Origin: Portulaca oleracea
Taxonomy: Eukaryota > Streptophyta > Magnoliopsida > Caryophyllales > Portulacaceae
Direction: 5' to 3'
DNA: 64,000 nucleotides
Assembly (NCBI GenBank): GCA_029582165.1
Contig: CM055877.1
Coordinates: 41,542,249-41,606,248, forward strand
Under the pieces are notes generated by a model. That model did no database searches. It worked only from the letters and a program-made list of their open reading frames with translations, and was not told the origin of the DNA. Of this stretch, positions 4,278 to 54,840 are shown piece after piece; within the stretch, counting starts at the first letter, position 1, and the number at the start of each line of letters is the position of its first letter. A program made the translations under genes and the position numbers.

Positions 4278-4430
4278 CCAACACGGTCCGTGTTGGATCA
4301 ACACGGTCCGTGTTGGGTGCAACACAACCCTTGTTGTTCCAACACGACCCGTGTTGAGCCTAGGAATGTTTCCTTTGCTCTCTGAAGACCAACACGACTC
4401 GTGTTGGTCCCAGACTCACCCGTGTTGATC
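4278..4430. repeat. Palindrome array in H LTR (CAACACGGNCCGTGTTG type)
   Basis: About six copies of a palindromic word lie in 150 bases. The first (4278-4296) is CCAACACGGTCCGTGTTGG with perfect 9-bp arms. The second is 4299-4315. Weaker copies lie at about 4319-4336 and 4339-4358. The copy at 4387-4409 has perfect 11-bp arms around one central C. A half-decayed copy ends near 4430. The array sits in U3, upstream of the TATA box. Confidence 0.85.
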
Positions 4431-4590
4431 ATATTCTTGACGTTTCACTTGTATGTGATCCTTGTACTTATAATATAATATATAATTCTTTAGGCTATAT
4501 AATTATCTTATACTCTTGAAATATTTCCAACAATTGAGAATCACTCATGTATAACTGCAGTCTAGACAAGAATGAAGATGTGATTAGCTT

Positions 4591-4753
4591 AGAATCTATT
4601 TCTTGAGTGTTACAAGAGCTAAGTTTTATCCCTTTGAACATTTACGGTATAGTAAATGATTCTTAAGGAAAGTGAGTACTAGGCCACGACTCTTAGCGTT
4701 ATCCAAGCGAGTTTCTATTGTTTTATATACCGTTTACTCCCTTTCCTCCAACA
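4591..4753 (+). repeat. Inverted copy of the last 163 bases of the H LTR
   Basis: This stretch is the reverse complement of 3846-4008 with only a few differences, and both copies are 163 bases long and end at the same LTR terminus (TCCAACA). Immediately left of it, 4571-4593 matches 4021-4043 in direct orientation. The two LTR pieces therefore switch strand within about 20 bases. This looks like a template-switch or inversion product rather than an ordinary LTR of an independent insertion. Confidence 0.85.
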
Positions 4754-5438
4754 GCTTGAATCTTGCTCGGAAGAAATAAACTTTGAAAACTATTTTCCAA
4801 GATATTTTTTCACATGCAAACTTACTGTTCAAATTGCCCTAAAGTGTTGAAATAATAAACATAAAGCCTCATGGCTCCACTTGAAAGTAAAGGTGAAACA
4901 ACAAGAAACAACCAACTTTGAAGGACTAGTACCATTTTGTAGCTTTTAAAGCTACCAAAGCAATATGGTTCATTTCTCAGGTTGGCCAGGAAAGGAAGAA
5001 AAACAAATACGGCTACATGCAAAAAGCAAACTCGCGCAAGCTAACTGATCCCCAACTACGGTGAATCAAAAAGGTAGTTTCCAAGAGACTCATTCATGAT
5101 ATCCATAGAACATTTAAAAAAAAAACATTCATACCACATCCAATATTGTAACAATACCATAAGTAATCACGGGAAGGCGTGGAAGAAGAATGGGCAAAAT
5201 AATGACATGTACGATCAGTAGATCTTAAGGTAGCCATTGTTTGATCAGATGATAATCCAGATATACTCACACTTCCATAGTAGGAACCACTCAAAATTAA
5301 TTGTTAGTCACCCAAAGATATACAGGTCACAGGACAAGGATGCATCTTGCAAGGTTTAGTAAATCACCAAAATTAGCGTTTATTTTACCAAAGTTTCTAT
5401 ATGGTTTAAGACCACTTTGGCTGAAGGGTTTATTTATA
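4754..5438 (-). pseudogene. WD-repeat-like gene remnant (minus strand)
   Basis: Between the inverted LTR piece and the Helitron, the minus strand has open stretches at 5094-5294 and 4822-5022. Around 5330-5200 it reads VTCISLGD, a stop, then LSGSYYGSVSISGLSSDQ and ATLRSTDRT. That resembles a repeat blade of plant F-box/WD-40 proteins. The frame carries a stop near 5300 and no splice-consistent gene model could be completed. The identification rests on a short motif-level resemblance; it could also be part of another beta-propeller gene. The other open stretch is not recognised. Confidence 0.35.
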
Positions 5439-5627
5439 TCAAGACTTCATTATAAAAGCAACTAATTTGGGTTGTGTCCCAAATGTTAGTTTTCTATTAT
5501 GCCCTTGACTTGAAATATTAATTTCACTCTCAACATATTTTGTGCCCTCAGATAAGTTTTCCTAATCCCACTCTTCTTTTTCTCTCCTCCCCTGTTCTCT
5601 CTCTACCTTCCCTTATCTAGAGAGAGA

Positions 5628-15552: not shown

Positions 15553-15566
15553 AAAAAAAAAAAAAC

Positions 15567-18876: not shown

Positions 18877-18937
18877 AACAAGTAGAAGTTGTGCATAATC
18901 AATGGAAGAGATGAGTGGGGGCGGGGATACTTACAGA

Positions 18938-19039: not shown

Positions 19040-20473
19040 TGTTCGGTTGTGGTAATTTGGGTTTAAAAGTAGGGGTAATCGTATCCACAGGGATGATGTG
19101 TTAGGTTACTAGGAAATTGGTTTGGTAAGGTTTCAATTGCTGAAAGCAGTAAATAATTAAAGTAACTAAACTAATCAAGATTGAAAGCAATAAAAATTAA
19201 GGAAAACAAGAACTCAAAGATGAACTAAACCTAATTTAGCATGAAGTAAATCTCTAACTAATAAAGCAATTTAAAACAATCAAGAACGATGAATGTAAAT
19301 ACTAAACTAATTACTGAAATTAAGGAAACCAAATTATACCTAGCATTCATGATACTAATCTTGAATCTTGAATCTTAAAATCTTGAATCTCGAATCACGA
19401 ATCTTCTCCCGAACAAACAAGAAAAAGCGTGATTTGGATTACTAAGACTACTGGAATCCTCACCTGAAGGGAGAATTCGAGGAACCTTAATCTTCCGCTT
19501 CACTAAAAATCGGAATTTGGTGTGGTTATACTAGAAAAATGGAAAAATAACCGAAAGAACACAAGAACTTGAAGAAGAAAATTTCATTAATCTAGAAAGG
19601 TTCAATTACAATCGAGAACCAAAAGAAAACTTAAGGAAATTCATCCTAAACCTAGGTAAACTAAAGACTAATTCTAACTAAAATAAAAACTAAGTAAAAA
19701 CTAATATGTCTCTAGCGAAAATATATAGGGTTAATATAGAAAAGAATTAGGGAAGGAAAAATAATAAAATAAAAACTCTCAAAACCCTAGCTAGCCGCCG
19801 CACAAATTTTTCGAACTCCAGCTGAGCGTCGCGGGCGCGACTCATAGGGTCGCGAGCGTGACCCTATTCTGTCCCATCGTCCGTTTTCGCTTCAGATGGA
19901 TGTCGCGGGCGAGACGCATAAATGACTCGGGCGAGACATTGATCTGTTTCAGTCGTTTCCGTTGCTCTTCATCGTTGTTCGCGGGCGCTATCCCAACTGT
20001 CGCGGGTGCGACATGGTAATGACTCGGGCGAGTCACTGTCATTCACGGGCTAGTCTAGCTCTTGTCTGCAGCTGGTCGCAGGTGCGACGTAGAGGGTGGC
20101 GGGCGCGACCCTTGGTAATGACTCGGGCGAGTCACGGTCTGGCTCGAGCGAGTTGGCGTTCTGCCCCAATGTCTTGGCGATGTGTTGGTTGCCCCATAAT
20201 CAAGTAACGGGCGAGTCATATTTCAACTCGGGTGTGACCATCTTCTGTCCGACACTTTCCTCTGTTTTGCTTTGGTTTTCGACTCGGGTCTCTGGTTGGC
20301 TCGGGATATCGCTCGGGATCCCCTAAAAAGCCAAAATTAAGCCCCATTTCCTTATATCCCTTTATTTTCCTACAAAACACAAAATCATCATATCAAATAT
20401 ATAATACCGGGGCTAAAACAAGCAAAAATAGCCTATAAAAGATATAAAATTCGGCTCGGAACGAGACTAAACA
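19040..20473 (-). repeat. 3' LTR of Athila-like element A
   Basis: It pairs with the 5' LTR at 33282-34764 over its whole length with few differences. On the minus strand it opens TGTTTAGTCTCGTTCC at 20473 and closes CCACAACCGAACA at 19040. A TATA-like CCCTATATAT lies at about 19721-19730 (minus strand), with the palindrome array upstream of it. The LTR lacks a tandem duplication of about 45 bases seen in the 5' copy near 34100-34190. Confidence 0.9.
19828..20315. repeat. Palindrome array in A LTR (GTCGCGGGCGCGAC / GACTCGGGCGAGTC)
   Basis: Roughly fifteen palindromic or half-palindromic words are built on a GGG centre. Examples are GTCGCGGGCGCGAC (19828-19841) and TGACTCGGGCGAGTCA, present twice in near-perfect form around 20020-20035 and 20117-20132. 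Decayed variants include GTCGCGGGTGCGAC and GACTCGGGTGTGAC. In LTR orientation they occupy U3 upstream of the TATA-like box. The same array is present in the 5' LTR at about 34077-34600. Confidence 0.85.
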
Positions 20474-25801: not shown

Positions 25802-25806
25802 CAATT

Positions 25807-27173
25807 TGATGTATGCAAGCTCACAAAGATCAGAGTATTGAACTTACAATACACCACACAGAAACACACACACTGCTGATGACTTCAAACAAAGCTAATT
25901 GAATGCAATTAGCTGGAATAGATGACAACCCTACAAGGAATTAAAAGGATAGTCTTGTAGTCATTCTGATACAGGCTCACCACAAAATAAACACAAGTGC
26001 AAGGACTTAGTTACCTCAGCAGATACAAGGACACCACCAATGAAGCAAGTGAGCTCTACACACACCACCAGGGTTGCCAACTCCTGGATACTGAAGTAGA
26101 TTTAACCGAATTGAGAGTTTGCTGACACTCACAAACGAGAGGCTCAACTAAGGCACTCAGAATGCTATTGAAAATATCACTGATTGGTTTCCAAGCTGCT
26201 GAATACAACACTATATATAGCTAATCCTAAGACAGTTTGATTAGAGGCATTTAATTAGAGTAACCTACTAATCTCCCTTCTAATCTAGCTACTGAACTAA
26301 AACAAATACATTACATTACATCCTATTCTAGCTAATACAATCCGGATACATTTGAAAATAAAAGAAAAAGCAATGCTGGCTTCTGATTGGACCAAAGCCC
26401 CAAAGGGTGGCAATTCTGACCAATCAAGGCCTTTGCTAGCTGGGAGGGTAATTCTAAGTTACCTCAGTAAGTTTCCCGGGCTTTTCTTAAACTAGATGTA
26501 ATCTCAATAGCTTAAGGAAGGCTGTGAAAGACTTAAATAACCCTCATTGTAGCTGAAATAAATAACTTGGCCTCAGAACTGAGGTTTTGGAAAAACTGAT
26601 AACAAATAACCTTGTAGGGTTGCTTGTTCTGGTGCTTGTAATTTATGGCTTCTTTGCTTGAACATGCTTGAACATGCTTGGGACTTGAAAATTGCATGTC
26701 AAGGAACAAAAATATCCTAGGGACCTTTGGCTGAATCTCACTCAATCCATAGATACAGAATTGAGAAAGATGCCTGCTTGGACTGGTTTTGCTGGGAACT
26801 AGATTTGGCCTGGATAGCCAATGCTGGTGGAATGAGTGGTTGTGCTGGCCAGGACTTGCCTTACCAAGGTGTAGCAAGCCTGGATGGATGATGTGTGTGG
26901 ACTGGTGGTTGCTGTGGACTCGTTGATCTGTTGCTGAGGATGGAAGCCTGCTATTTCTGCTGGAATTGCTCCAACAAGCCGATTTGCTTTGAGTTTACCT
27001 GGGCTTCCTTGACAATCTTTGGTCTTGAACATCTTTGTGTATCCTCCTTGGGTGATGAAGATGATGTAGAAGCTACTTGTGCTGCTGCTGTTGCTGAATC
27101 ATCTCCATGCTCCTGGTCTGAACTTGTTGATGATGCTTGATCAACTGTTGGGCTTGCTGAATGGTCTCCATCA
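25807..27173 (-). repeat. Solo LTR of the element D family inside A protease
   Basis: The 1367-base stretch begins TGATGTATGCAAGCTC and ends GGTCTCCATCA on the plus strand. It is flanked by a perfect 5-bp target duplication CAATT (25802-25806, 27174-27178). It matches the two LTRs of element D (36374-36707 plus 54841-55863; 60391-61754). No internal sequence is present, so this is a solo LTR left by LTR-LTR recombination. A TATA-like CTATATATAG lies at 26211-26220 (minus orientation). Confidence 0.92.
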
Positions 27174-31805: not shown

Positions 31806-33072
31806 TTCCCTCTCATGCCTATCCTCATTAGTCTACCCTGGTGGAGGTTGGGTTTGGGCAATTTGGGGTTAGATAGGTGGCCCTCTAGGAGCTTGATAAG
31901 CTACCTGGGGTGGTGGTCGATTTTGAGGAGGAGGATTTCCTTGGAAACCCCCTCCTTGACTAGGTGGTCTCAACACATTCTGATTCTCGAGGCCATAGGA
32001 GAGTAAGGGGTGCTTGCGCATCCCCTGGTGCTGGTAGGGTTGGTACTGGTTAGGCCTATAGTTATGATGCATAACATTCACATTTTCAATACTAGCAGCT
32101 AATTGTTGAATATAAATAGGACAAGTAGAATAAACATGGTCAACACTTTGGCACAAGGCACATGACACAGGTGGTGGGGGAACAAAAGCAGCAATCTAGT
32201 CATAAGAGTTAACCTGAGCACATGTTTTAGGTTGTGAAGTAGCTAATTGTTGTTGGGCTAAGGTTTTAATCATATTTTCAAGAGAAGCGAACCTAGCCTC
32301 GTACCCTGTACTCTCACTCACAACATGTACACCCCCTAGCATTAGACAATTGAGCACCTAAGGATTCATCTCTAGTGGTTCCCCATTGCATTTCCCTTTC
32401 AGACATGCTTTCTAAGAAATCCCAGGCCTCATCAGCAGCTTTATCCATAAAACCCCCCTGACACATTGACTCTAGTGTAACTCTAGTATCATGGTCGGCA
32501 CCCTCATACATGATGTGACACAGTCGTACCAAGTCAAGACCATGATGAGGGAATTGGGACAGCAAGTTTTTGAAACGTTCGAAAGCTTTCCAGTAAGGCT
32601 CTCCTATGTCCTCTCTAAATTTTAAAATTGAATTCCTCAGTTGAGTAGCTAAGGAGTTTGGAAAAAACCTTTTCATAAAAACTTTTAGAAAACAATCCCA
32701 AGAATTAATGGACCAAGGTTTGATGCTATACATCCACCGCTTAGCGGTGTCCCCTAGAGCAAAAGGTATGTACTTTAAAAGTACATAGTCTAATGGGACC
32801 CCTGGTGGAGTTATCATGCTAATGTATTTTTTGTACTTTGCGGTCCATATGAGTGCTAACCCAGTACCTGTGAAAAGTGGTATGTTCTGGGTGTAGTGCT
32901 GCATAGGGTTAAAGGTCACTCCTGTAGGCAGGTTGGGAAGTACAAAACATGATGGTGGTGGGTCATAAGATGGGTATAACTGGTTATAAAGGGTTACCCT
33001 AGGTGGAGGTGGTGGCGGTGCTTCTTCAGACATCTTTGGTGATTCTACCGAGAGTTCCTCCTTCCTGACCAA
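31806..33072 (-). pseudogene. Element A: gag (capsid) with CCHC-like motif
   Basis: The open part 33072-32314 starts with an ATG about 190 bases after the primer-binding site. It contains the retrotransposon-gag domain: FALGDTAKRWMYSIKPWSIN, WDCFLKVFMKRFFPNS, FREDIGEPYWKAFERFKNLL. A Pro-rich N-terminus (EEAPPPPPPRVTLYN) precedes it. After a frame change, 32168-31869 holds a zinc-knuckle-like C-A-L-C-(x4)-H-(x4)-C and a Pro/Gln-rich tail. It is cut at 31805 by insertion X. Several stops make it non-functional. Confidence 0.85.
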
Positions 33073-33262
33073 TCTTTGACTACCAGGACTACGAACCCAA
33101 ACCTCAGGTTGATGTTCTTTCCGTTTTTTCCTTGAAGTCTCAATTTTTTTTATTTTTTGGTTTTATAATTTTTTTTGGTTTTTTTGTTTTTGAAAACTAA
33201 TCTAAGAAAGCAGTTAAACTATTCACAAACAAACCAATAACCTAATCTACCAAATAACGCCA
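33073..33262 (-). other. Leader of element A between primer site and gag
   Basis: About 190 bases on the plus strand are strongly T-rich with TTTTTGG runs (33140-33190). No other motif is seen. Confidence 0.5.
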
Positions 33263-33281: not shown

Positions 33282-34764
33282 CGTTTGGTTGTGGTAATTT
33301 GGGTTTAAAAGTAGGGGTAGTCGTATCCACAGGGATGGTGTGTTAGGTTACTAGGAAATTGGTTTGGTAAGGTTTCAATTGCTGAAAGCAGTAAATAATT
33401 AAACTAACTAAACTAATCAAGATTGAAAGCAATAAAAATTAAGGAAAACAAGAACTCAAAGATGAACTAAACCTAATTTAGTAAGAAAGTAAATCTCTAA
33501 CTAATAAAGCAATATAAAACAATCAAGAACGATGAATGTAAATACTAAACTAATTACTGAAATTAAGGAAACGAAATTATACCTAGCATTCATGATACTA
33601 ATCTTGAATCTTGAATCTTAAAATCTTGAATATCGAATCACGAATCTTCTCCCGAGAAAACAAGAAAAAGCGTGATTTGGGTTACTAAGACTACTCAAAT
33701 CCTCACCTGAAGGGAGAATTTGAGGAACCTTAATCTTCCGCTTCACTAAAAATCGGAATTGGGTGTGGTTATACTAGAAAAACGGAAAAATAACGGAATG
33801 AACACAAGAACTTGAAGAAGAAAATTTCATTAATCTAGAAAGGTTCAATTACAATCGAGAACGAAAGAAAACTTGAGGAAATTCATCCTAAACCTAGGTA
33901 AACTAAGGACTAATTGTCTAATTCTAACTAAAATAAAAACTAAGTAAAAACTAATATGTCTCTAGCGAAAATATATAGGGTTAATATAGAAAAGAATTAG
34001 GGAAGGAAAAATAATAAAATAAAAACTCTCAAAACCCTAGCTAGCCGCCGCACAAATTTTCCGGACTTCAGCTGACCGTCGTGGGCGCGATGCATAGGGT
34101 TGCGGGCGCGACCCTCTTCTGTCCCATCGTCCGTCTTCGCTTCAGCCCGCGACCCTCTTTTGTCCCATCGTCCGTCTTCGCTTTAGATGGATGTCGTAGG
34201 CGAGACGCATACATGACTCGGGCGAGACATGGATATGTTTCAGTCGTTTCCGTTGCTCTTCATCGTTGGTTGCGGGCGCTATCCCAACTGTCGCGGGTGC
34301 GACATGGTAATGACTCGGGCGAGTCACTGTCATTCACGGGCGAGTCTAGCTCCTGTGCGCAGCTGGTCGCAGGTGCGACGTAGAGGGTGACGGGCGCGAC
34401 CCTTGGTAATGACTCGGGCGAGTCACGTTCTGGCTCGAGCGAGTCGGCGTTCTGCCCCAATGTCTTGGCGATGTGTTGGTTGCCCCAGAATCAAGTCACG
34501 GGTGAGTCATATTCCGACTCGGGTGTGACCATCTTCTGTCCGGCACTTTTCTCTGTTTTGCTTCGGTTTTTGACTCGGGTCTCGGGTTGGCTCGGGATAT
34601 CGCTCGGGATCCCCTAAAAAGCCACAATTAAGCCCAATTTCCTTCTATCCCTTTATTTTCCTACAAAACACAAAATCATCATATCTAATATATAATACCG
34701 AGGCTAAAACAAGAAAAAATACCCTATAAAAGATATAAAATTCGGCTCGGAACGAGACCGAACA
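33282..34764 (-). repeat. 5' LTR of Athila-like element A
   Basis: Partner of 19040-20473. On the minus strand it opens TGTTCGGTCTCGTTCC at 34764. The palindrome array is at about 34077-34600. A block of about 45 bases (CCTCTTCTGTCCCATCGTCC...) is tandemly duplicated near 34100-34190, making this copy longer. The flanks (ATAGC on the minus strand before it, GTCGC after the 3' LTR) agree at only three of five bases, so the target duplication has decayed. Confidence 0.9.
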
Positions 34765-36373: not shown

Positions 36374-36707
36374 TGATGTATGAAAGCTCACAAAGATCAG
36401 AGTATTGAACTTACAAAACACCACACAGAAACACACTCATTGTTGATGACTTTAAACAAAGCTAATTGAATGCAATTAGCTGGAATAGATGACAACCTAA
36501 CAAGGAATTAAAGGATAGACTTGTGTTCACTCTGATACAGGCACACCACAGGATAAACACAAGGGCAATGACTTAGTTACCTCAACAAATACAGGCACAC
36601 CACCACTGAAGCAAGTAAGCTCTACACACAGCACCAGGGTTGCCAACTATTGGATACTGAAGTAGATTAAACCAAATGAGAGTTTGCTGACACTCACAAA
36701 CGAGAGG
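36374..36707 (-). repeat. 3' LTR of element D, first part
   Basis: It starts TGATGTATGAAAGCTCAC, matching the D-family LTRs. The outer target copy TAATG (36369-36373) pairs with CAATG at 61755-61759. It is interrupted at 36707 by element B and continues at 54841. Confidence 0.9.
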
Positions 36708-37178
36708 TGTTTAGACCCATTTTTGCGTCTAAATACCGCCTAAATCCTTAGGCTTTTGACTTGTCTCGTAGCTCGTTTTAATAACTTTTAATGCGTTTTG
36801 TTTATTTTTTGTAGTTTCCGAAGGTTTTACTCAATACGATGCTAAATGGGCTATTTTTGCACTAATCTTGGGAATCCCGAGATTCCTTAAGATTCCCCGA
36901 GCCCTGGTCATGTCAAAGGCAGCGTAATCGGAAAGGCCGAGTATGTCGAAAGCGCGGAAACGCAAGTGCAAGCTCCCAAGCGTCAAAGGGTAGCCCCCGC
37001 GACCAATTCCATATCGGGCGCTACGCCCTGAAGTAACCAAGTGGCCGAGATAGACCGTGGCCACGGTCACCATGACCGTAGCCACGGTCAGATTGAAGCC
37101 AAACGCCCAAAAGGAGGAGTTGCAGCCCGAGATGGACCGTGGTCACGGTCAACCTAACCGTAGCCACAGTGAGCATAC
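36708..37178 (+). repeat. 5' LTR of element B (left fragment)
   Basis: It starts TGTTTAGACCCATTTTTGCG and matches 53059-53530 of the 3' LTR with few differences. It contains part of the GACCGTGGCCACGGTC palindrome array (about 37050-37172). It is cut at 37178 by copia element G; the remaining about 1.3 kb of this LTR is absent from the window. Confidence 0.9.
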
Positions 37179-38036
37179 TGTTAGGTTTTAGGTTATCTAT
37201 TTCCTAAACAAATACAGATTAATTGGCGGAAAATTATAACAGTTATAAACAATTAATCAATAACAACTGTAGAGGCTTTAGTAATTATACCTGATCGCTA
37301 ATTCCTGCTGAAGAAGAGGTTGACCTTCCAGATTCCAACGCTGAAACCCTCTACTGAAAAGTCCACGCAGCACTCCGGGAACCCGATTGCTAGATCGACC
37401 CAATCGCGACGAATCTCAATCTAAGATGTATGTGAAAATGTTCGGGAAATAGAGAATGTTTCCTGAAACTTAAACTGCAAACTGAAAGAGAGAGGAACTC
37501 AGGAAATCACCCTGGTATCTCTCTAAGAGTCTTAGGCAGTTGATGGTAGAATAATATCTCACAGAGACCCCTTTATATAGTGTTTAGAAAACCTAGGGAA
37601 AGGGTTCAAAAACCCTAAAGGGCCGAATTAAAACAACGGCGCCTTTCTGGGCCCAACATGGTCCGTGTTGAAACAACACGGTCCGTGCTGGACTCCAGAA
37701 GGTCCAATTAATCGGCCCATGGACACCACGGGCTGTGGTGTCTCAACACGGACTGTGTTGGGTCAACACGACCCATGTTGAACCCAATTTGGTCCGTGTT
37801 GGGCTGATTTCTCACAGAAATCAATTTCCAACTTTTCTAAACGTGATACAATATCATTTAGGTTACATACATTGTTCCAGGGCATTGACTTGTGTGACCC
37901 AGTAGGACCAAATAATATAGTTGTAATTAAACATATTTAATTACTAATTATAGAGGTCTCTAGCAAGACATATAGTTTCTATATTACTTTGGTTTAATCT
38001 CCGTGTATATCGAACATTGTCGGGACATTCCCAACA
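37179..38036 (-). repeat. 3' LTR of copia element G
   Basis: On the minus strand it opens TGTTGGGAATGTCCCGAC at 38036 and closes CCTAAAACCTAACA at 37179, giving TG...CA ends. GTGGGAGAT, a polypurine tract, lies directly upstream (38037-38045). A TATA box (CTATATAAAG, minus strand) lies at 37571-37580. Host target bases CATAC (37174-37178) flank it on the left. The partner copy expected at the other end is missing. Confidence 0.88.
37654..37803. repeat. Palindrome array in G LTR (CAACACGG.CCGTGTTG type)
   Basis: Six to seven units: CAACATGGTCCGTGTTG (37654-37670), CAACACGGTCCGTGCTG (37674-37690), a unit with GACACCACGG and CTGTGGTGTC arms (37722-37742), CAACACGGACTGTGTTG (37744-37760), TCAACACGACCCATGTTGA (37763-37781) and a weaker one to 37803. 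The core word is the same as in copia H. The array lies about 75-230 bases upstream of the TATA box. Confidence 0.85.
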
Positions 38037-43752: not shown

Positions 43753-44269
43753 CGAAATCGACGGTGTTCGCCTGCGGAAGATGGAATTCTTGGAGAAAAA
43801 CAAGACGCGTACATTCTACCGTCACGGGAACGAGCCCCATTGCGTCGTCGTTCATTTGGGTGACGACAATGCCGAGAAACGTCTAGATGTCACCGACAAA
43901 CGAAATTGGTCGTGCGACCAAACTTATGGGGGTCGTTTTGCGGTGGGTGATCTCGAGGAACCCGAGGAGGAAGGTGACGAAGAAGAAGAGGCAGAGGAAG
44001 AAGATGATGAGGAAGAGGAAGAGGAGGAAGAGGGAGGACAAGCACAAGGGGACGAAGTCGAGCCGAGTCAAGTGCGGGACGCCGCTCTTGAACGCGTCAG
44101 CGAGCAACTCCAGGAGCTTCATGATGAGTTTCAAGAACAACGGGAGCTCATCCAAAACCAACAGACGTTGATTGAAAACTTGCAACGGTTGATCGAGACC
44201 AGACAAGAGATACTTGCTAGCATCCAATCGCAACTCCAACCCCGTCATCCTCCGGGAGGGTCCGCTTGA
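43753..44269 (+). pseudogene. Env-like ORF of element B (C-terminal part)
   Basis: The open frame enters from the junction with G (IDGVRLRKMEF) and ends at 44269. It is homologous to the E env-like ORF: RNWSCDQTYGG here against HNWSCGQHHGG there. It then has a long acidic run (Glu/Asp, about 43950-44035) and a Gln/Glu/Leu-rich stretch with heptad-like spacing that is probably a coiled coil (LERVSEQLQELHDEFQEQ). The N-terminal two thirds are deleted at the G junction. The first in-frame ATG (43781) is internal, not a true start. Confidence 0.65.
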
Positions 44270-46183
44270 GGACCGTTTGTAAGCACTCAACCCCCCACTC
44301 GACCTTTATCATCGCTTTAATTTACTTTATTCTGTGAAGTATAAGTGTGGGGGGGTGCTTCTTCGGGGTTTGGATGCGATGTCTGATGGTTTTGGTGTGT
44401 TGATCTCTCGGTTTCATTTGGCATGTTTTGGCATGATTTTGGGGTTGTTTGGTTATGATGCTCGGGTTTGCCTTGCTTGTTGGTCTTTCATGTGTTGCCG
44501 GGTTATCCTTTAGTTGTTCGATGGTTATTTTTGTGGACCGAGAAGTTTGTTTACTCTTGTTTCGGTTGTATTTTGATCACTGATGATTTGTAAATGAATA
44601 TTGTTGTGATGAATGCAATGAATCAGTCATTTTGGTTGGTATATATGGAGTTTCACCCTTATTTCCCGCCTCAATGAGTGAGACTCAGGGATAAGGCAAG
44701 TCATTGGTAATGTACCTTTTGTAATTAGTTTTGTTTTTCATAGTCTTTTAAGTTAGTTTTTCCTTTCTTTTGTTTTTGGTCTTGCATGCGAGTTCTATCG
44801 ATTGTAAGTCGTCTTTTGCTCTAACATCGTTTTGATTCACTTGAACGACGACTCTGGATCGTTGTTTTAACGCTTTTTGAAGAGTTTGAGGTAATATCTT
44901 TCCACCTTACTCTTTTTACGTGAATTCCTATTATGATCCATCGCATTCTTGGTTTTCTTTTGCGTGGCGAACCCCTGTGAATGTCTGTGTTGGGTTATAT
45001 ATTGCTGTTGGAGCCGTGTGGGCTCGGGTCGCCACCATTTCTACTTGCTAGTTCTTTTGTTTGTGTTTTTGTAGGTTCTCTACCCTTTTCATGTGACTCC
45101 TTCCCACAATAAGGACATTGTGGAGTTTTAAGTGTGTGTGTGTGGGGGGGGGGGGGATATTCTGCTTCAAGGGTAGATCACATAGTCATCTTGTTCCTTG
45201 TTTTCCTAGTTTTTGCTAAAATTTGAAAAATTTTGTGTGAAAAAGGAGAAAAAAGGGAGTGAAAACCTTTTGGTTTTTCTTTTCGTTTTGTCTTTGTTTG
45301 GTTTTGCTTCCTAGATCTCGTCTTCGGAGTTGAGAAGCCGTTCTTAAACTTCTTTAAAGTTAACCGGTTGGAGCATTTTCGACCCTAATTCGGGTTCTAG
45401 TCGAGACTTACCCTTAATAAACTCCTTTCGTTAAGTGTCTAGCGAGACCCCCGTTCCTTTCCCTTTTTGCTGGAACCGGGAGGTTTTAGGAGCTTATGTC
45501 CGAGTTTGTTTTGTTTTCGTTTAGCAAAAGCAAAAGTGCAAAAAGAAAAGAAAGAAAAACTCTCTTAAGATACAATAACCTGAATAAGTGGAGCGTGTCG
45601 CTGTAGACATTAACCACCAACACTTAGCCAACCTACACGGGCCCGGTATTCGTGGTACGACATGGATACCCCTTAACCCTCCTCCCATATCGCTTTGCGA
45701 CGGAGAGGCGAATGGAAAAGACCGTGTTGGGAGGGTATACCCCTTATATGGGCCGTCCGATTCCCGAAAGTAAGGCTAATACCGACTTTTAAAAACCAAA
45801 AAGAAAAAAAAAGAGAGAAAAGAAAAGCAATTATCGTTGGTATTTCCAACTCAAAAAGAAAGAAAAGGAAACGTTTTTGCTTTTTAAAAGAGTGGGGCCT
45901 CCCCTTGCATCACCTACGACCCTCACCAAGCCAAGGGCGACCAAATGCGAGGAAGGGAAACGCTTCTCTTAGTCGTTTCGTTGTTTTCAAATTCGGACGC
46001 GAGTTTTTAGAGTCTTTTGGTTCCCGTTAAAACCTTTTCTTGTGGGGTTTCGCTTGGTACAAGGTGTAGGGAGTTGAAAAATCTTCATGATCAACTTTTA
46101 CCTGAGTTTGGTGTTATGAGATGCTCCTAACGGTTACTTTGGGAGGTTTAATCGCGTTTTTTTTCGGTTTTGTTTTCACTTTC
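44270..46183 (+). other. 3' non-coding region of element B, upstream part
   Basis: Homologous to the E region 18937-17862 in inverse orientation. Landmarks are a G tract after the env-like stop (TATAAGTGTGGGGGGG, about 44340-44356), a hairpin and G tract at 45104-45156, and CTTTCGTTAAGTGTC at about 45425. Short ORFs at 45588-46030 are not conserved in type and are not called as genes. Element C interrupts at 46183. Confidence 0.7.
45104..45156 (+). other. Hairpin plus polypurine-like tract (element B)
   Basis: CCACAATAAGGACATTGTGG (45104-45123) has 7-bp arms. It is followed by TTTTAAGTGTGTGTGTGTG and then a run of 14 G (45143-45156). Same arrangement as in A and E. Confidence 0.7.
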
Positions 46184-47124
46184 TGAAGAGCTCCGGGTTC
46201 CATTCTCCACTTTGGTGATCTCCGCCAAGCGAGCCGCTTCAACCAACTCGAGCCTTGAGTTACAATTTCCGGTCACTTCTGGAATTGCGAGGCTAGTCTC
46301 GGCCATCTAGTGGATGGGCCCCGGGACTCTCTAGGCAGGCCCGCCCAAAGCACCGACCCCGGAGGCCTCGGATCGACCGGCCGTCCGAGATCGGAGAATA
46401 GGAGGTATCGGGGTACGGGTGTAAAACCCCGGAAGCAACAAAGTCCAAGCACAAGAGAGGCGTCATGCAGCAGGTCGTCACGCCCGCGACGCATCAGCCC
46501 AGGTCGTCGCGCCCGTGACCCTCGCCAGGTCACGCCCGTGACTCGTTACGGCATTCTGGGGAAATTGGGAAGAATTTGTCACGCTCGTGACCCTCGCCAG
46601 GTCACGCCCGTGACTCGCTGCGGCATTTTGGGGGAAATTGGGAGGAAGTTCGTCACGCCCGTGACGATTCAGCGTAGCGCCCGCTACGATCGCGCGCCCG
46701 AAAATCGCCTGGAGTTTTCGCTCTGGTCATGCCCGTGACCATCTGGCGTAACGCCCGTGATGACGCTGTTTTGCGTGGTTTATAACGCTGAGTTTTGCTT
46801 ATGTTATAAATTCTTGTTTAGCACATTTCCCAAGGCAGTTTTTGATAATTAATGATATGCTAAAGCATTTCTAGGGTTTCTCCCTATTCTCTCTAAACCT
46901 TGTTTACTTTATCCATTGTTAATGGTGGTGTTGCAAGTGACTCCTTTATTGATCATTTGGTGGATTCTTCCTTTATGATTGTCATGGTGGGGTGTTAGGC
47001 TTTGGTGGTGGAATCTCCTTTATCCAAGGTCATATCCAGTCCCTTTGGTGTCCAAGATTTTATTTGATTGTTCATTCAAGTTACTCAAGCTCGCCCATCA
47101 ATCTTTCCCATCACGACACGCTCC
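46184..47124 (+). repeat. 5' LTR of gypsy element C
   Basis: 941 bases, TGAAGAGCTCCGGG...GACACGCTCCA. It pairs with 51888-52841 at high similarity. The target copy CTTTC (46179-46183) lies immediately left, and a primer-binding site follows. A TATA-like TTATAAATT is at 46804-46812, downstream of the palindrome array. Confidence 0.95.
46476..46771. repeat. Palindrome array in C LTR (GTCACGCCCGTGAC)
   Basis: About ten units with the form GTCACG-CC-CGTGAC or close variants (GTCACGCCCGCGAC, GTCGCGCCCGTGAC, GTCACGCTCGTGAC, GTCATGCCCGTGAC). There is also a related AGCGCCCGCT word. The array ends about 35 bases upstream of the TATA-like box. The 3' LTR has the same array (about 52184-52470), including CGTCACGCCCGTGACG with 7-bp arms at 52184-52199. 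Confidence 0.88.
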
Positions 47125-47139
47125 ATTTGGTATCAAAGC
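47125..47139 (+). other. Primer-binding site of element C (tRNA-Met type)
   Basis: TTTGGTATCAAAGCC directly follows the 5' LTR. It matches the complement of initiator tRNA-Met (TGGTATCAGAGC) with one mismatch. Confidence 0.85.
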
Positions 47140-47465
47140 CCAAGGTTTGCATGAGCTTGAGTTTTGTTCATTCCTCCATTGTTCATTGCTAGTACAGTTG
47201 TATTTTGATTGAAATATTGGTGTTCCCCATCCCTTGTGACTCTAAGTGTGTTGGAGAAATTGTTATTGCTATTGTGTTTGTTGATTTTGATGCATATTGG
47301 AGTTTTGAGGAGGAGTTGGAAAATTTGTGCCCACAAGGTGTTCGATAAAATACCCAAGTGAGAAAAACACAAAGAACCTTTAGCCAAACACAAGCCAACT
47401 ACAAAAAAACCCCCAAACTCCACAAAATATCCAAAACACAATCTGTCCCATACCTTTCCCTCGAT
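47140..47465 (+). other. Leader of element C
   Basis: About 330 bases between primer site and gag start; AT-rich, no coding signal. Confidence 0.55.
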
Positions 47466-48572
47466 ATGGATGGTCACGATGATTCCGATCGAGAGGAACC
47501 TAGCCACCGGAGGAGTTCCCGAGTCCAAGGAATAGAGGACCGACTCGCCACGATGGACGAGAGGTTCATTTCCCTTGAGAATCATAACGCTAACATCAAG
47601 CGGACTCTTCTGGAGATTGCGACACAAATGAACAATTTGACGGTGCAACGTCAAGGGCAACCACAAGTTGAACGTCGGAGGCGTGCACAAAGCCCTATCC
47701 GTCCTCCTCCAAACTTTAAGTCGAGTGACGATGCTAGAGGCTCTCCACGACACCGAATTCGTCGGAATGCGCAAGATCCACTCCCTCGTGACGACTTCCA
47801 GGACGTTAAAATTGACATCCCTGAATTCAACGGCTCCACTGACCCAGATGACTACATCGAATGGATCCAACTAATGGATAGGATCTTCGAGACCAAGGAG
47901 TATGATGATGAGAAGGCTTATAAGATCGCAAGCTTGAAACTCACCAGGGCCGCTTCGCTTTGGTTTGAGAATATGAAGTTGCAACGGGCTCGTGAAGGGA
48001 AGGCGAGGATTTCCACTTGGACCCGGCTTAAGCAAGTGATGAATCGCCGCTTTTTGCCAAACACTTACCGTCATGACGTTCTAAGAAGGCATATGCCCTT
48101 ACCCAAGGCAAACGAATTGTCGGGGAGTACATATCGGAATTCGAGCAACTTCTTATCAAAAGTGGCCTCCAAGAACCTGAAGATCAAACCATGATGCGCT
48201 TTTTAAATGGCTTGGATCCCACCATCGCTAAAAGGGTCGAGATTCAATTTTACTATTCCATGGATGAGTTGTGTAGCTTGGCCCTTCGGGTTGAACGACG
48301 TCGGAAAGAAAGGGCTCTCACCAAACCGATTTCACGCAACTACTTTCCACCGTCAAACCGTCCTCCTCTTCAATCGGCCACACCCAAGCCTAGTGACACA
48401 CCCAAATTCCCTACGACACCCCGAACTGATAAAGGAAAGGGACTTATTTTAGCGTCTCCTACGGGAACAACTCGTCTTGTGAAAGGAAAGAAATGCTTCA
48501 AGTGCCATGGATATGGCCACTTCCAGGCCGATTGCCCAAACCGACGGACCTTGACTCTCAAGGATGTTCAGG
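47466..48572 (+). pseudogene. Element C: gag with CCHC zinc knuckle
   Basis: Start ATG at 47466 (MDGHDDSDREEPSHRRSSR). A heptad-rich N-terminus is followed by the gag domain (YIEWIQLMDRIFETKEYDDE, ASLWFENMKLQRAREGK, LKQVMNRRFLPNTY). A frameshift near 48120 breaks the domain. The second frame continues with FLNGLDPTIAKRVE and a knuckle C-F-K-C-H-G-Y-G-H-F-Q-A-D-C near 48500. An alternative upstream ATG at 47358 is in frame but adds no conserved sequence. Confidence 0.85.
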
Positions 48573-50488
48573 ACATTGACGAGGAATTGCAAGGAGCCCG
48601 GGATGAGCCTGAATTTGTTGTTGAGGATGCATACACTAGTGAAGAAGGGGAAACCGCGGCTGTTTCGCGTGACCAAGGAGGTGCTCTTGTCTTGAGGCGA
48701 GCTTTGCATGTTCAAGAAGCCCCTCTTGACAGAGCCCAGCGGGAGACTATATTCCAAACACGATGCTTAGTTGGGGGTAAGGTTTGTGAGCTTATCACCG
48801 ACGGGGGAAGCTGTACTAATGTGGCCTCTACCTATATGGTTGACAAACTGCCTCATCCCCATCCTTATTCGCTGAAATGGCTCAATGACCGCGAAGGCAT
48901 TAAGGTAACCAATCGTGTCTTAGTGAATTTAACTTTTGGCACTAACTACAAGGATTCTATTGTTTGTAATGTTGTCCCCATGAGCGCGTGTCACATATTG
49001 TTGGGTCGACCGTGGCAATTTGACAAGAAAACCGTTCATAACGGATTGAAGAATACTTACTCCTTTATTCACGAGGGCAAGAGGGTTAAGCTCCTCCCAC
49101 TAGCACCACATGAAATATTACCACCTAAACCTGGGGCGGGAAGTGAGGAGCCCAAACACTTGAGTGAGACACGGGTCGAGCGAGCCCTAAGCAAGGGGAA
49201 GGCCATTTTTGCCTTACTCCTCTTAGAGGCGAAGACATGTGAGGAAGTGACACCTAAACACCCTCTCGTTGCCCCTCTTCTTGCTGAATTTGGAGATGTG
49301 TTCCCCGAAGAGCTCCCACCGGGTCTACCCCCTATTCGAGGTATTGAGCATCAAATCGACCTTATGCCCGGAGCTCCCCTTCCCAACAATGCTGCATATC
49401 TGTGCAACCTGCAAGAAACCAGGGAGTTGCAACGGCAGGTTGATGAGCTTATTTCACGAGGCTATGTTCGAGAGAGCATGAGCCCGTGCTCCGTCCCGGC
49501 CCTCCTGGTTCCGAAGAAAGATTGTACCTTCAGGATGTGTGTAGATAGCCGAGCCATCAACAACATTACCATCAAGTATCGGTACCCTATACCGAGGCTT
49601 GATGACATGCTCGATGAACTACATGGCTCCTGAATTTTCTCCAAGATTGATCTATGGAGTGGCTACCATCAAATCCGTATGAAGGAAGGCGATGAGTGGA
49701 AGACAGCGTTCAAGACAAAGGGGGGATTATATGAGTGGCTTGTCATGCCATTTGGGCTTTCCAACGCCCCGAGCACGTTCATGCGTCTTATGAACGAGGT
49801 ATTGAGGCCCTTTATTGGTAAATTCGTCGTGGTTTATTTCGATGATATTCTAGTATATTCGACGAGTGAAGCGGAGCATATTGTGCATTTGGAGCGGGTG
49901 TTCGAGGTTTTGCGGCAACAACGGCTTTACGACAAGCTGGAGAAGTGCGAGTTTTGCACTTTCCAAGTCACCTTTCTTGGGTATATTGTTTCGGGCTCGG
50001 GTATTTCTATGGACCCTTCGAAGGTGGAGGCCATCTGCTCTTGGCGCTCTCCCTCTACTATCACGGAGGTGAGGAGCTTCCACTGTCTTGCTTCATTCTA
50101 CCGCCGGTTCATGAAGGGCTTTAGTACCCTTACCGCCCCTATTACTGAGTGCATGAAGAAGGGCGCCTTTGAGTGGACCCGAGTGGCCCAAGGAGCGTTT
50201 GAGAAGCTGAAATCCCGACTTTGTGAGGCTCCGGTACTTGCTCTCCCGGATTTCACACAAGCCTTTGAAGTGGATTGCGATGCTAGTGGTGTAGGCATTG
50301 GAGCTGTTTTGATGCAAAACCAACGTCCTATCGCTTATTTCAGTGAAAAACTCAGCGGGTCAAGGAAGAACTATTCCACATATGATAAGGAGTTTTACGC
50401 TCTTGTACGGGCTCTAGATCATTGGTCACACTATTTGAGGCCAAGCCAGTTTGTCCTTCATTCAGATCATAGGCGCTCAAATATTTGA
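48573..50488 (+). pseudogene. Element C: protease, reverse transcriptase and start of RNase H
   Basis: The protease motif LITDGGSCTNVAS is near 48800, followed by HILLGRPWQFD. RT starts with CSVPALLVPKKDCTFRMCVD and RYPIPRLDDMLDELHGS; a TGA stop (49631-49633) follows. RT then continues with [35 protein letters not shown] and the catalytic [12 protein letters not shown] near 49840, both aspartates present. RNase H begins [16 protein letters not shown] with [12 protein letters not shown]. The frame breaks again near 50475 (LHSDHRR). The coding is close to intact, suggesting a young insertion. Confidence 0.9.
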
Positions 50489-52038
50489 ACGGACAACACA
50501 AGCTTAGCTCCCGGCATGCCAATTGGGTTGAGTTCCTTCAAGGATTTAACTTTGTAGCAAAACACAAGAAGGGGAGTGTAAATGTGGTCGCCGATGCACT
50601 TTCGAGGAGACACTCTCTTCTTTCCGTAGTTGAGGCAAGGGTACTTGGGTTTCAGCACTTAAAGGAGTTTTATAAGGAGGATGATGACTTTAAATCACAC
50701 CTCGGTGGTGGTGATGGGCCGTATTTGCTACAAGACGGATTTCTCTTCAAGGGTAACAAGTTGTGCGTTCCAAAATGTCCGTTGAGAAAACTTCTAGTGC
50801 GGGAGGTTCATGGAGGTGGTCTCGCCGGTCACTTCGGTATCAATAAGACCATCGACATGTTAAAGGAGCACTTTTATTGGCCGAAGATGGGAGGCGATGT
50901 GCAGGATGTGGTGTGGAAGTGTATTACTTGTCACCATGCCAACAGCGAGTTCCACCAAGGGCTTTATACACCCCTTTCGGTTCCGAATGGTCCGTGGGAG
51001 GATTTGAGTATGGACTTCATTGTAGCTCTTCCCCGAACCGTGCGTGGCAAAGATGCAATTCTAGTCGTCGTTGACCGCTTTTCTAAAATGGCGCATTTCA
51101 TTGCTTGCAAGAAAACCGATGACGCCACACACATTGCCACACTTTTCTTCCGAGAGGTGGTGCGTTTGCATGGTGTTCCGAGGACTATTGTGTCGGATCG
51201 TGATACTAAATTCATGGGGCTCTTTTGGAGGTCTTTGTGGAAGCTCTTGGGGACGAAGCTTTTATTTAGCACATCGCATCATCCTCAAACAGACGGCCAA
51301 ACTAAGGTAACTAACAAGACTCTCATTACATTACTTCGTGGTCTTGTGAGTCGGAGTCTACGAGATTGGGATGCCAAGTTGTGTGACGCCGAGTTTGCCT
51401 ATAACTGGTCCCCCTCTTTTGCTACGGGACATTCGCCCTTCGAGACTTTCTATGGGGTCAACCCTATAACTCCTATCGAGCTCCTTCCTCTTCCTTTAGA
51501 GTCGAGGGTTTGCTTCGAAGCAAGTGAGAAAGCCGCTGAGATCCAAAAACTTCACCCGAAAATTCGAGAGAAGATCGAGTGCACCAATAAACTTTGTAAG
51601 GCCCGAGCCAACAAGCATCGCCGTGGTATCACGTTCAAACCCGGAGACTTGGTTTGGCTACATTTGAGGAAGGAACGGTTCCCTTCTCAGAGGAGTAATA
51701 AGCTAATGCCACGAAGCGAGGGTCCGTTCAAAGTTTTGGCCAAGATAAATGACAATGCCTACAAGCTTGATCTTCCAGGTGACAACGGTGTTTCCTCAAC
51801 CTTCAACATCGGGAACCTTTCGCCCTACATTGAGGATGTTGAACCCGACGTGGATTTGAGGGCAAATCCTCTTCAAGAAGGGGAGGATGAAGAGGTCCGG
51901 GTTCCATTCTCCACTTTGGTGATCTCCGCCAAGCGAGCCGCTTCAACCAACTCGAGCCTTGAGTTACAATTTCCGGTCACTTCTGGAATTGCGAGGCTAG
52001 TCTCGGCCATTCAGTGGATGGGCCCCGGGACTCTTTAG
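50485..52038 (+). pseudogene. Element C: RNase H end and integrase, reading into 3' LTR
   Basis: The frame starts with the last RNase H block (NVVADALSRRHSL). The integrase zinc region has the His pair in HGGGLAGHFG and the Cys pair CITC (near 50925). The core shows MDFIVALP, IVSDRDTKF and HPQTDGQTKVTNKTL. In this family the last block normally reads QTEV, so the third catalytic residue is Lys instead of Glu. The tail has FKPGDLVWLHLRKERFP and FNIGNLSPYIE; no chromodomain is recognisable. The ORF passes through the polypurine tract (51877-51887) and runs 50 codons into the 3' LTR before its stop at 52036-52038. Confidence 0.9.
51877..51887 (+). other. Polypurine tract of element C
   Basis: AGAAGGGGAGGA-type purine run immediately left of the 3' LTR, inside the integrase ORF (encoding EGEDE). 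Confidence 0.85.
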
Positions 52039-52841
52039 GTAGGCCCGCCCAAAGCACCGACCCCGGAGGCCTCGGGACCGGACCGGGTCGTCCCGAGACT
52101 GGAGAATAGGAGGTACCGGGGTGCGGGTGTAAAACTCCGGAAGCAACAAAGTCCAAGCACAAGAGAGGCGTCATGCAGCCGGTCGTCACGCCCGTGACGA
52201 CTTTGGTCGCGCCCGCGACGCATCAGCCCAGGTCGTCACGCCCGTGACCCTGGCCTGGTCACGCCCGTGACTCGTTACGGCGTTTTGGGGGAAATTGGGA
52301 AGAATTCGTCACGCCCGTGACTCGCTGCGGCATTTTAGGGAAAATTGGGAGGAAGTTCGTCATGCCCATGACGATTCAGCGTAGCGTCCGCTACGATCGC
52401 GCGCCCGAAAATCGCCTGGAGTTTTCGCTCTGGTCACGCCCGTGACCATCTGGCGAAACGCCCGTGACGACGTTGTTTTGCGTGTTTTGCTTGGTTTAAA
52501 ACGCTGAGTTTTGCTTATGTTATAAATACTTGTTTAGAACATTTCCCAAGGCAGTTTTTGATAATTAATGATATGCTAAAGCATTGCTAGGGTTTCTCCC
52601 TATTCTCTCTAAACCTTGTTTACTTTATCAATCGTTAATGGTGGTGTTGCAAGTCACTCCTTTATTGATCATTTGGTGGACTCTTCCTTTATGATGGTCA
52701 TGGTAGGGTGTTAGGCTTTGGTTGTGGAATCTCCTTTATCCAAGGTCATATCCAGTCCCTTTGGTGTGCAAGTTTTTATTTGATTGTTGATTCAAGTCAC
52801 TTAAGCTTGCCCATCAATCTCTCCCATCACGACACGCTCCA
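51888..52841 (+). repeat. 3' LTR of gypsy element C
   Basis: 954 bases, TGAAGAGGTCCGGG...GACACGCTCCA, followed by target copy CTTTC (52842-52846), identical to the left copy. Indels relative to the 5' LTR lie mainly in the palindrome array. The first about 150 bases are coding for the integrase tail. Confidence 0.95.
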
Positions 52842-52846
52842 CTTTC

Positions 52847-53058
52847 CCTCTCTCCTTTTTCTTTCGCTTTTGTGGGTACAGCCGCTACAAACCCTCACGA
52901 GTCCATCTTGTCCACCCGGGCTGCCGGGGGGTTCAAAGGGCTTGGTGCATACGCTAAATGCACCCGTTTCTCTCCCATGACAGCGGAGTTAGTGTTAGTT
53001 AGTTTGTTTTGTTTTGTTTGCTCGGGACGAGCAAAAGTTTAAGTGTGGGGGGGGGGGG
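52847..53058 (+). other. Element B 3' non-coding end and polypurine tract
   Basis: Resumes element B after insertion C. It contains a block shared with element A (GGGTACAGCCGCTACAAACC... against 20570-20700) and the inverted repeat GCTCGGGACGAGC at about 53021-53033. The polypurine tract TTTAAGTGTG plus a G run (53039-53058) abuts the 3' LTR. Confidence 0.8.
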
Positions 53059-54840
53059 TGTTTAGACCTATTTTCGTGTCTAAATACCGCCTAAATCCTT
53101 AGGCTTTTGACTTGTCTCGTAGCTCGTTTTAATAACTTTTAATGCGTTTTGTTTATTTTTTGTAGTTTCCGAAGGGTTTACTCAATATGATGCTAAATGG
53201 GCTAGTTTTGCACTAATCTTGGGAATCCCGAGATTCCCTAAGATTCCCCGAGCCCTGGTCGTGTCAAAGGCAGCGGAATCGGAAAGGCCGAGTATGTCGA
53301 AAGCGCGGAAACGCAAGCGCAAGCTCCCAAGCGTCAAAGGGTAGCCCCTGCGACAAATTCCGTAGTGGGCGCTACGCCCTGAAGTAACCAAGTGGCCGAG
53401 ATAGACCGTGGCCACGGTCACCTTGACTGTAGCCACGGTCAGATTGAAGCCAAACGCCCAAAAGGAGGAGTTGCAGCCCGAGATGGACTGTGGTCATGGT
53501 CAACCTGACCGTAGCCACGGTGAGCATACTGCCCTGCCCAAGGAAGAAGTTGGCCGAAGGAGACCATAGCCACGGTCTCCCATGACCGTAGCCACGGCAG
53601 TTCGAAGGAGCGAAGATTTGCCAACCCTAAATCGCCTACACCGTGCCCACGGTGACTGGGTACCGTGCCCACAGTACAGCGAAGAGAAGAGAAAACTTTC
53701 CTGCCTTACGCAGGACCGTGGCCACGGTCACCTTGACCGTGCCCACGGTCCCCTGCGGACATAGTTTGTCTGTAGTGTTTAACTGATGAGTTTTGAGTAA
53801 CAACCTGAGTTACTATATATTGTTTTAAGTCATTTTAGCAGGGAGGATCTTTATCAATCTTTAGACAATCCTTAATCAGCTTTTACCTAGCTTTTATGAT
53901 ACTTTTAGACTTCTTTTATCACATTCTAAGCTTTGGATTAGAGAGTTAGTGAACATTTTGCTGAGTTATTGATTCTTGTTCTGGATTCTCTCAAGTTTTA
54001 TTTCAAGTTTGAAGATTATTATCATATTTGGAGCATTGGAGCATTTATTATTCAGAGTTTTTGCTTTTTGTCATCAATCAATGAGTATTTCTTAACCCTT
54101 CTCTCTTTTATTTCATAGTTCATCTATTAATCCTTGTTTTGCTTTTGTTGCTTTTATTGATTTTGTTGATTGTTTGTTGTCATCTTGTTTATCTTTTTAA
54201 GCATGATTAATGTTGTTGATGTTAGTATCATGATAGTTAGGATGTTTAGTGGCTAGAACCCTAATGGGTTAGGGAGATATTAAGGGTGCGAATGGGTGAT
54301 TAGGTTTGGGTTAGCAATTTTAGTGAGTAACTAGTTAGGAAATCAACTTCCCAACCCTATCCTTCCCTCAAGTGGGATGTAATTGGGTGTGAAAACATCC
54401 CGACTACATTCAATGCTTGTTGGAAGGTAGGAATTGGGATAGTTAGTGTTCTAGTTCGTGAACGCGAATAGAAACTAACTAGGAAATTCCGTTTAATCGA
54501 CTCCCCAGGTCTGTCTATGGACTTTGGGGAAGTCAATCCGGACTATCCTTGAAAAAGGAAGCCCGATGGGTATTTTCCAACGGAGTTACCATTTGATTTC
54601 CCCTTCTCGTTACTTTCTTGCTGCGAAACCATTTCTCCCGTTTGCATCCCGAAAGTCTCCTGACACCCATTGTCTTACCTGTTGACCGAACTCAGCGTTT
54701 TTGTGTTGTTTTTACCTCAAAAGTCCTTCTCCCCTTTCTTAATCCTAAACCCTACCTAGAGTTAAGTAATTGCTGTGAATGCCCCTAGCTCCCTGTGGAA
54801 GAACGATAGTACCGAGGTCTAACAAACCCTTTGTGCAACA
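53059..54840 (+). repeat. 3' LTR of element B
   Basis: 1782 bases, TGTTTAGACCTATTTTCG...CTTTGTGCAACA. The outer target copies are AGAGG (36703-36707) and AGAGA (54841-54845), one mismatch. A TATA-like ACTATATATTG is at about 53812-53822, downstream of the palindrome array. The U5 side (54240-54840) is GC-richer and has no further repeats. Confidence 0.9.
53404..53750. repeat. Palindrome array in B LTR (GACCGTGGCCACGGTC)
   Basis: About ten units: perfect 16-mers GACCGTGGCCACGGTC at 53404-53419 and 53714-53729, GACCGTGCCCACGGTC (53735-53750), CACCGTGCCCACGGTG (53639-53654), AGACCATAGCCACGGTCT (53561-53578) and decayed variants between. The array ends about 65 bases upstream of the TATA-like box. 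Confidence 0.88.

Follow-up and report, generated by a model that had tools for sequence, protein, structure and literature searches.

Palindrome arrays upstream of TATA-like boxes in copia and gypsy long terminal repeats of Portulaca oleracea, with words shared between families

Results

Elements and palindrome arrays in the window

The DNA analyzed here (the window) is a stretch of 64,000 nucleotides from Portulaca oleracea (GenBank assembly GCA_029582165.1, contig CM055877.1, positions 41,542,249 to 41,606,248 of the forward strand). It contains long terminal repeat (LTR) retrotransposons, some of them nested, and the LTRs of five families, here called H and G (copia) and A, B, and C (gypsy), carry clusters of short palindromes in U3. 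We read and scored eight array intervals; the anatomy of the elements was taken from a self-comparison of the window and from reading of the boundaries (Table 1).

Table 1. Coordinates of LTRs, arrays, and associated features in the window
Feature	Position	Strand	Remarks
H LTR (5′ LTR, copia)	3846..4532	-	Ends TGTTGG...CCAACA; TATA-like CTATAAATAAG at 4074-4084
H array	4278..4430	-	CAACACGNNNCGTGTTG units, 4 exact and 2 degenerate; U3 of copia LTR
Composite site in H array	4378..4396	-	CGTGTTG-NNN-YYCAGARRG, exact
A 3′ LTR	19040..20473	-	Approximate ends; partner (5′) LTR ~33283-34764
A array, 3′ LTR	19828..20315	-	Sense words GTCGCGCCCGCGAC and TGACTCGCCCGAGTCA, plus imperfect units
Gypsy reverse transcriptase and integrase	~24860-23862 and ~23487-22469	-	Between the A LTRs
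A gag (PF03732)	32314..33162	-	Between the A LTRs
A array, 5′ LTR	34077..34600	-	
Gypsy element interrupted by B	LTR pieces 36375-36707 and 54837-55863; other LTR 60392-61761	-	pol 60170-55446
B element	36708 to 54824	+	Inserted in LTR of minus-strand gypsy element
B array, 5′ LTR	37050..37172	+	Interrupted by the G insertion
G 3′ LTR (copia)	37179..38036	-	Nested in B 5′ LTR, within the B array region; TATA-like box 37568-37579
G array	37654..37803	-	Imperfect units; copia 3′ LTR
Composite site in G	37684..37702	+	Inverted relative to G LTR; half-site with one change
C element (gypsy)	46184..52841	+	Inside B; gag, reverse transcriptase, RNase H, integrase with SH3_Tf2-1
C LTRs	46184-47125 and 51888-52841	+	Target site duplication CTTTC; primer site TGGTATCAAAGC at 47128
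C array, 5′ LTR	46476..46771	+	GTCACGCCCGTGAC and variants
C array, 3′ LTR	52184..52470	+	
B 3′ LTR	53059..54824	+	TGTTTAGACC...GGTCTAACA; polypurine tract immediately 5′
B array, 3′ LTR	53404..53750	+	GACCGTGGCCACGGTC, CACCGTGCCCACGGTG, and others

H was assigned to copia by its RVT_2 domain, and the RVT_2 and integrase open reading frames (ORFs) at 958-3317 (minus) set its strand. For G, the copia call comes only from a short integrase remnant at 40915-40739 (minus; 59 residues, 36% identity). A degenerate match to an Athila/Tat-type (TGGCGCCGTTGCCGGGG-type) primer site starts at 33280 on the minus strand, beside the A 5′ LTR; we take this type of site to be a marker of the Athila/Tat lineage, both in A and in a family, M, described below. 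The reverse transcriptase (RT) and integrase between the A LTRs presumably belong to A, given their position and shared strand. B is probably an Athila/Tat-like gypsy element, a placement made only from its polypurine tract and termini. In the C ORF at 50473-52038, integrase and SH3_Tf2-1 were detected and no chromodomain was found (Pfam, E ≤ 0.001); because this domain was not detected at the integrase C terminus, we left C as another gypsy lineage and did not call it a chromovirus. The RT of C is only 32% identical to the RT between the A LTRs. Together with the RVT_2 domain of H, this agrees with the preliminary description in treating the families as unrelated, where that was tested. A search of viral contigs turned up nothing related to the C integrase or to H pol.

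Two inverted repeats adjoin the copia LTRs. An inverted copy of the 3′ end of the H LTR lies just upstream of that LTR (3846-4008 versus 4591-4753, 98% complementary), and an inverted repeat flanks the junction of the G polypurine tract and 3′ LTR (38037-38080), resembling one described at the same junction in PMC2829016.

Palindromes are clustered in all eight intervals

We counted perfect palindromes (arm of at least 6, spacer of at most 3) in each interval plus 20 bp on each side and compared the counts with 300 dinucleotide shuffles. The counts (shuffle mean/maximum in parentheses) were 4 for H (0.28/2), 3 for G (0.26/2), 4 and 3 for the first and second A arrays (0.42/3 and 0.51/4), 5 and 8 for the two C arrays (0.48/5 and 0.45/3), and 2 and 4 for the two B arrays (0.09/1 and 0.34/3). 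Perfect units in the second A array and the first C array did not exceed the maximum of the 300 shuffles. With an arm of 7 and one mismatch allowed, we counted 4 palindromes in H, 10 and 8 in A, 5 in G, 8 and 8 in C, and 3 and 6 in B; for each of the eight arrays, 0 to 2 of 500 shuffles matched the count. We concluded that palindromes are clustered in all eight intervals, above the mean of the shuffles throughout. The arms of 6 to 11 bp and unit lengths of 14 to 23 bp given in the preliminary description are correct. Its figure of 6 to 15 units per array overstates the number in H, G, and B if poorer units are left out, and the word CAACACGNNNCGTGTTG that it assigned to both copia families is present in exact form in other G copies and not in the G array of the window, where every unit is at least 1 base off.

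Arrays end shortly before a TATA-like box

Within U3, each array makes up a segment rich in GC and CpG, beyond which the sequence turns AT-rich and contains a TATA-like box. In addition to the boxes of H and G, TATA-like boxes lie at 46804 and 52520 (plus) in C, at 53811-53822 (plus) in B, and near 19727 (minus) in A. The genome (1.13 Gb, 63 contigs) was searched for further copies, and those of A, B, and C were drawn from many contigs. For each of four families, 40 candidates were scored: for C, 40 of 2,977, with 30 loci fetched; for A, 40 of 3,089, with 16 fetched; for B, 40 of 2,644, with 16 fetched; and for H, 40 of 2,547, with 15 U3 pieces fetched. The fetched A, B, and C loci contained 34, 85, and 200 GC-rich palindromes, versus 5, 3, and 19 in one shuffle per locus, and there were none in the four 100-bp bins (400 bp) past the array. 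The median distance from the last palindrome to the first TATAWA was 89 bp in A (measurable in 11 of 16 loci; range up to 333 bp), 70 bp in B (16/16 loci; up to 364 bp), and 72 bp in C (30/30 loci; up to 501 bp). The common layout that had been proposed, an array in U3 ending before a TATA-like box, is therefore found in the copies of A, B, and C, with medians of 70 to 89 bp. It is not universal among LTR families: as a control, the LTR of the gypsy element that B interrupts (60392-61761, minus; also 25808-27180) had no array and hardly any CpG.

Arrays are retained in other genome copies

All 30 C loci (2 of them the window's own) had 3 to 8 perfect palindromes, and all 16 B loci (1 the window's own) had 4 to 7. 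At least one perfect array-type palindrome was present in 14 of the 16 A loci (2 the window's own), and 3 to 9 CGCCCG cores were present in all 16. Each of the 15 other H copies had at least one unit. For G, we have five further copies, every one located via the word itself. In these counts, the loci and units within a family are kin, and both LTRs of one element were often included. The preliminary description had named absence from other family copies as grounds for rejecting its claim; the arrays are not absent from the C, B, A, and H copies.

We also took an arbitrary sample of 60 kb (six 10-kb stretches) from two spots, which is too small for a genome-wide rate. The six stretches together held 106 palindromes versus ~88 per shuffle set; palindromes are thus not greatly overrepresented in general. 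The one clear LTR pair in this sample (locus L032, 2443-3920 and 7026-8471) has GC-rich palindromes, ACCTCGGGCTGCCCGAGGT and GCCACGGACCGTGGC, and its termini and polypurine tract are like those of M.

Apart from the arrays, B has a palindrome of the type TTTGCTCGGGACGAGCAAA just 5′ of its polypurine tract (53017-53035), and a variant of it occurs in 5 of the 16 A-family loci (among L037-L052).

Array words are shared between families

Each family had been described as having its own words, and this did not hold up. GTCGCGCCCGCGAC is common to A (19828-19841, minus) and C (52206-52219, plus), exact on the sense strand. CGTAGCGGGCGCTACG occurs in B copies and CGTAGCGCCCGCTACG in C copies; the words CGTAGCG-CC-CGCTACG and CGTAGCG-GG-CGCTACG come from C and B copies. 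GGTCACGCCCGTGACC was found in one A copy, and a second word set, GTCxCGCCCGxGAC and its relatives, is present in A and C. The words are also abundant. The H 17-mer CAACACGGTCCGTGTTG has 9,597 exact copies in the genome and GTCACGCCCGTGAC has 3,526, versus 0 for each reversed control.

The H word also occurs in a gypsy LTR. With the arrays masked, 20 sampled H-word sites fell into five groups: H-type (6 sites), K (5), G-type (5), M (3), and N (1). No LTR was recognized at the N site. The start of the K LTR is H-like. The M LTR ends TGATGAG...CCTATCA and is accompanied by the primer site TGGCGCCGTTGCCGGGG, the same type as that of A. One M locus (L091) has four units, with a TATA-like box ~45 bp beyond them; another (L090) has a piece of gypsy integrase that is 56 to 59% identical to two gypsy elements of the window (59% to the pol enclosed by the A LTRs). 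Since M is gypsy by its primer site and by this integrase piece and carries the H word, one word is used by both copia and gypsy LTRs.

Outside the arrays, the LTRs of H, G, and M had no similarity above shuffles. Of 14 such comparisons, one beat all 100 shuffles, that of the initial 22 bp of the H and K LTRs; the downstream parts of M and K were matched by 3 of 100 shuffles, N and H by 4 of 100, and the rest by more.

A nonpalindromic companion accompanies the shared word

In most H, K, and M loci, a nonpalindromic companion, YCAGARRG, lies at a fixed distance from a half-site of the palindrome. The resulting composite, CGTGTTG-NNN-YYCAGARRG, was exact in 11 of the 20 sampled H-word sites and at most 1 base off in 17; the misses were L093, L100, and L101. 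With the two copies of the window included, it was at most 1 base off in 7/7 H, 6/6 G, 4/5 K, 2/3 M, and 0/1 N loci. In H, K, and M it reads in the same direction as the LTR; in each of the six G copies it is inverted. Genome-wide, the composite occurs 3,702 times, versus once for the reversed pattern; because the pattern was derived from these same loci, this number gauges abundance and not independence. We concluded that at least four LTR types carry the CAACACGNNNCGTGTTG array together with YCAGARRG: H and G of copia, M of gypsy, and K.

Separately from these elements, the window contains a large inverted repeat at 62356-62910, with arms of 273 nucleotides that are 88% complementary and 9 nucleotides apart.

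Discussion

A putative enhancer and alternative explanations

Of the explanations considered, we rate as most likely that the arrays act as enhancers in which dyad sites for a DNA-binding protein of the host are clustered, and we give this reading an even chance of being right. From the sequence, we infer both protein binding and enhancer activity. Such an enhancer would either have spread between the LTRs of both superfamilies or have been selected independently in them, and we would favor spread by recombination or template switching over independent selection of one composite site. What argues for protein sites is the position before the TATA-like box, the recurrence of an identical word with a nonpalindromic companion across superfamilies, and the occurrence of the composite in both orientations; the inversion in G fits an enhancer that works independently of orientation. 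Arms covary little among 134 distinct H, G, K, and M units (z = 2.7). This is expected for a fixed half-site, and it is a weak point because the units were chosen by likeness to that half-site.

Several observations weigh against protein sites or weaken the numbers. Many array units are imperfect, so their symmetry is not strictly maintained, and no one half-site fits every family. The arms of A, B, and C units vary together (z = 4.9 to 6.0; none of 2,000 re-pairings reached the observed total), which fits structure or palindrome copying as well as protein sites; one C arm position pairs less than expected in this test. These z-scores are not probabilities, since related units and loci and paired LTRs were counted. 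Single A loci mostly do not exceed their own shuffles, making retention weakest in A. The 20 H-word sites were hand-picked from 100 listed places with near neighbors omitted, and all lie on one contig (C1) below 8.6 Mb. Finally, the spacers are modestly similar outside the palindromes, as judged from the best ungapped match against 200 shuffles. The K-M match was reached by 0 shuffles (1 with the second M copy) and the inverted G-M match by 1 (24 with the second copy pair); the others were reached by 3 (H-K), 4 (N-K), 5 (N-M), 30 (H-M), 42 (G-K), and 186 or more (H-G).

A more specific proposal is that array and companion together form an enhancer cassette that was passed, in either orientation, between LTRs of the two superfamilies by U3 recombination or template switching; it is possible, with the balance of probability against it. 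Such transfer would make unrelated elements in a genome responsive to one and the same host factor. If there was no DNA exchange, sites recognized by one or more shared, abundant host factors would have arisen in each family separately. The lack of detectable homology outside the arrays of H, G, and M and the mostly weak spacer matches are consistent with this, but the fixed YCAGARRG spacing in H, K, and M and the inversion in G are better explained by copying, and we regard convergence alone as improbable, even though a composite protein site would produce the same spacing. Given unrelated families with the same layout, the choice between convergence and spread of a module, as first proposed, is a fair way to read the data.

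The palindromes might instead act as RNA or single-stranded DNA structure, through hairpins that turn into hot spots of small RNA, an idea put forward for Sireviruses of maize. We think such a hairpin or small interfering RNA module unlikely, though it has more in its favor than convergence alone. The arms of A, B, and C units covary, RNA folding is far below that of 60 shuffles for H (z = -7.6), G (-5.4), the second B array (-8.1), and M (-7.8), and Sirevirus palindromes in maize are small-RNA hot spots according to PMC10760457 and PMC5311732. However, folding barely beats shuffles for the first A array (z = -1.0) and the C arrays (-0.9 and -2.5), arrays before the TATA-like box should lie outside the ordinary 5′ LTR transcript, and structure does not account for an identical word and nonpalindromic companion recurring across superfamilies. 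The last point also bears on a replication by-product, in which RT template switching at hairpins and slippage would multiply units and perfect quasi-palindromes without any function. The two LTRs of one C element do differ in unit number, as do separate copies, and arm differences are often two-sided; units with single-sided mismatches are nevertheless common, and neither the same 17-mer with a companion at fixed distance in copia and gypsy LTRs nor arrays ending before TATA in family after family would be explained. We consider this somewhat less likely still, and hairpin slippage, raised in the preliminary description, fits poorly as the sole cause. Protein sites, hairpins or small RNAs, and by-products of replication are not exclusive, and two of them may act together. 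For maize copia elements, PMC10760457 suggests such a combination, with regulation that would need the palindromes and small-RNA templates in the same regions.

We also considered whether the arms mimic LTR termini, as integrase sites. H ends TGTTGG...CCAACA and its units read CCAACAC...GTGTTGG; M has the same word and ends TGATGAG...CCTATCA. Mimicry was rejected as a general rule, and we give it hardly any credence.

If several gypsy and copia lineages of one plant have arrays, and the two superfamilies have an identical unit and its companion in common, LTR promoters may evolve by swapping of cassettes or by convergence on one host factor. Thousands of identical 17-bp sites would be ready bait for identifying the putative factor. 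They also raise the question of whether the host silences these families jointly via the same sequence.

Comparison with known systems

Among the papers listed in our literature search on the topic, which did not extend to most subscription journals, none was seen to describe such arrays for gypsy LTRs or the use of one word by both superfamilies; a search by sequence word returned only an unrelated virus paper. The layout itself is already known from Sirevirus copia LTRs. According to Bousios et al. 2010 (PMC2829016), palindromic repeated motifs (RM) are present in 13 Sireviruses at 8 or more, up to 32, copies per element, cluster upstream of TATA, and form CpG islands that stop on average 37 bp before it; they are described there as specific to Sireviruses and missing from the remaining copia elements examined. 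The arrays in P. oleracea likewise have many palindromes in the upstream half of the LTR, in a CpG-rich block ending shortly before TATA, and the H core, CGG-N-CCG, is consistent with the CGG-CCG signature given there. Boxes before TATA and CpG richness (by density alone) were found in the arrays of the window and in A, B, C, H, K, and M copies. In contrast, the words of A and C have CGCCCG in place of CGG-CCG, copies per LTR are few, near or under the reported minimum of eight, and arrays are present in gypsy LTRs, with a word shared across superfamilies. Sireviruses are Ty1/copia elements, as are H and G and unlike gypsy A, C, and M. Where they could be compared, H and G also appear to depart from Sirevirus hallmarks. 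The Sirevirus primer binding site TATCAGAGC is absent after the H LTR, with no recognizable transfer RNA primer site there (3780-3860), and G carries AGTGGGAG, 1 base off the Sirevirus polypurine tract AGGGGGAG, with no AGGGGGAG nearby. Named entries among 120 listed relatives of H were mostly "zinc finger, CCHC-type"; two were TNT 1-94.

Two other systems offer partial parallels. LTRs of Del (gypsy) elements of monocots have length-variable 5′ CpG islands, as reported in PMC4029996, and gypsy LTRs here likewise contain, in their 5′ half, a CpG-rich block of variable length; the main text of that paper does not mention palindromes, and it reports no CpG island for its eudicot Del group. In Tnt1, U3 evolves in a modular fashion (PMC1838419), and a symmetrical box I is named in PMC2829016. 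U3 as a fast-evolving regulatory module, with symmetrical sites thought to regulate transcription, is common to Tnt1 and the present families. However, the U3 diversity of Tnt1 lies within one related copia group, whereas here one type of array occurs in copia and gypsy. What is new relative to these systems is that arrays occur in gypsy elements (A and M of the Athila/Tat type, B as a probable further member, and C of another lineage) and in copia H and G, which appear atypical for Sireviruses, and that different families use common words. The sharing of words across superfamilies is the surprising part.

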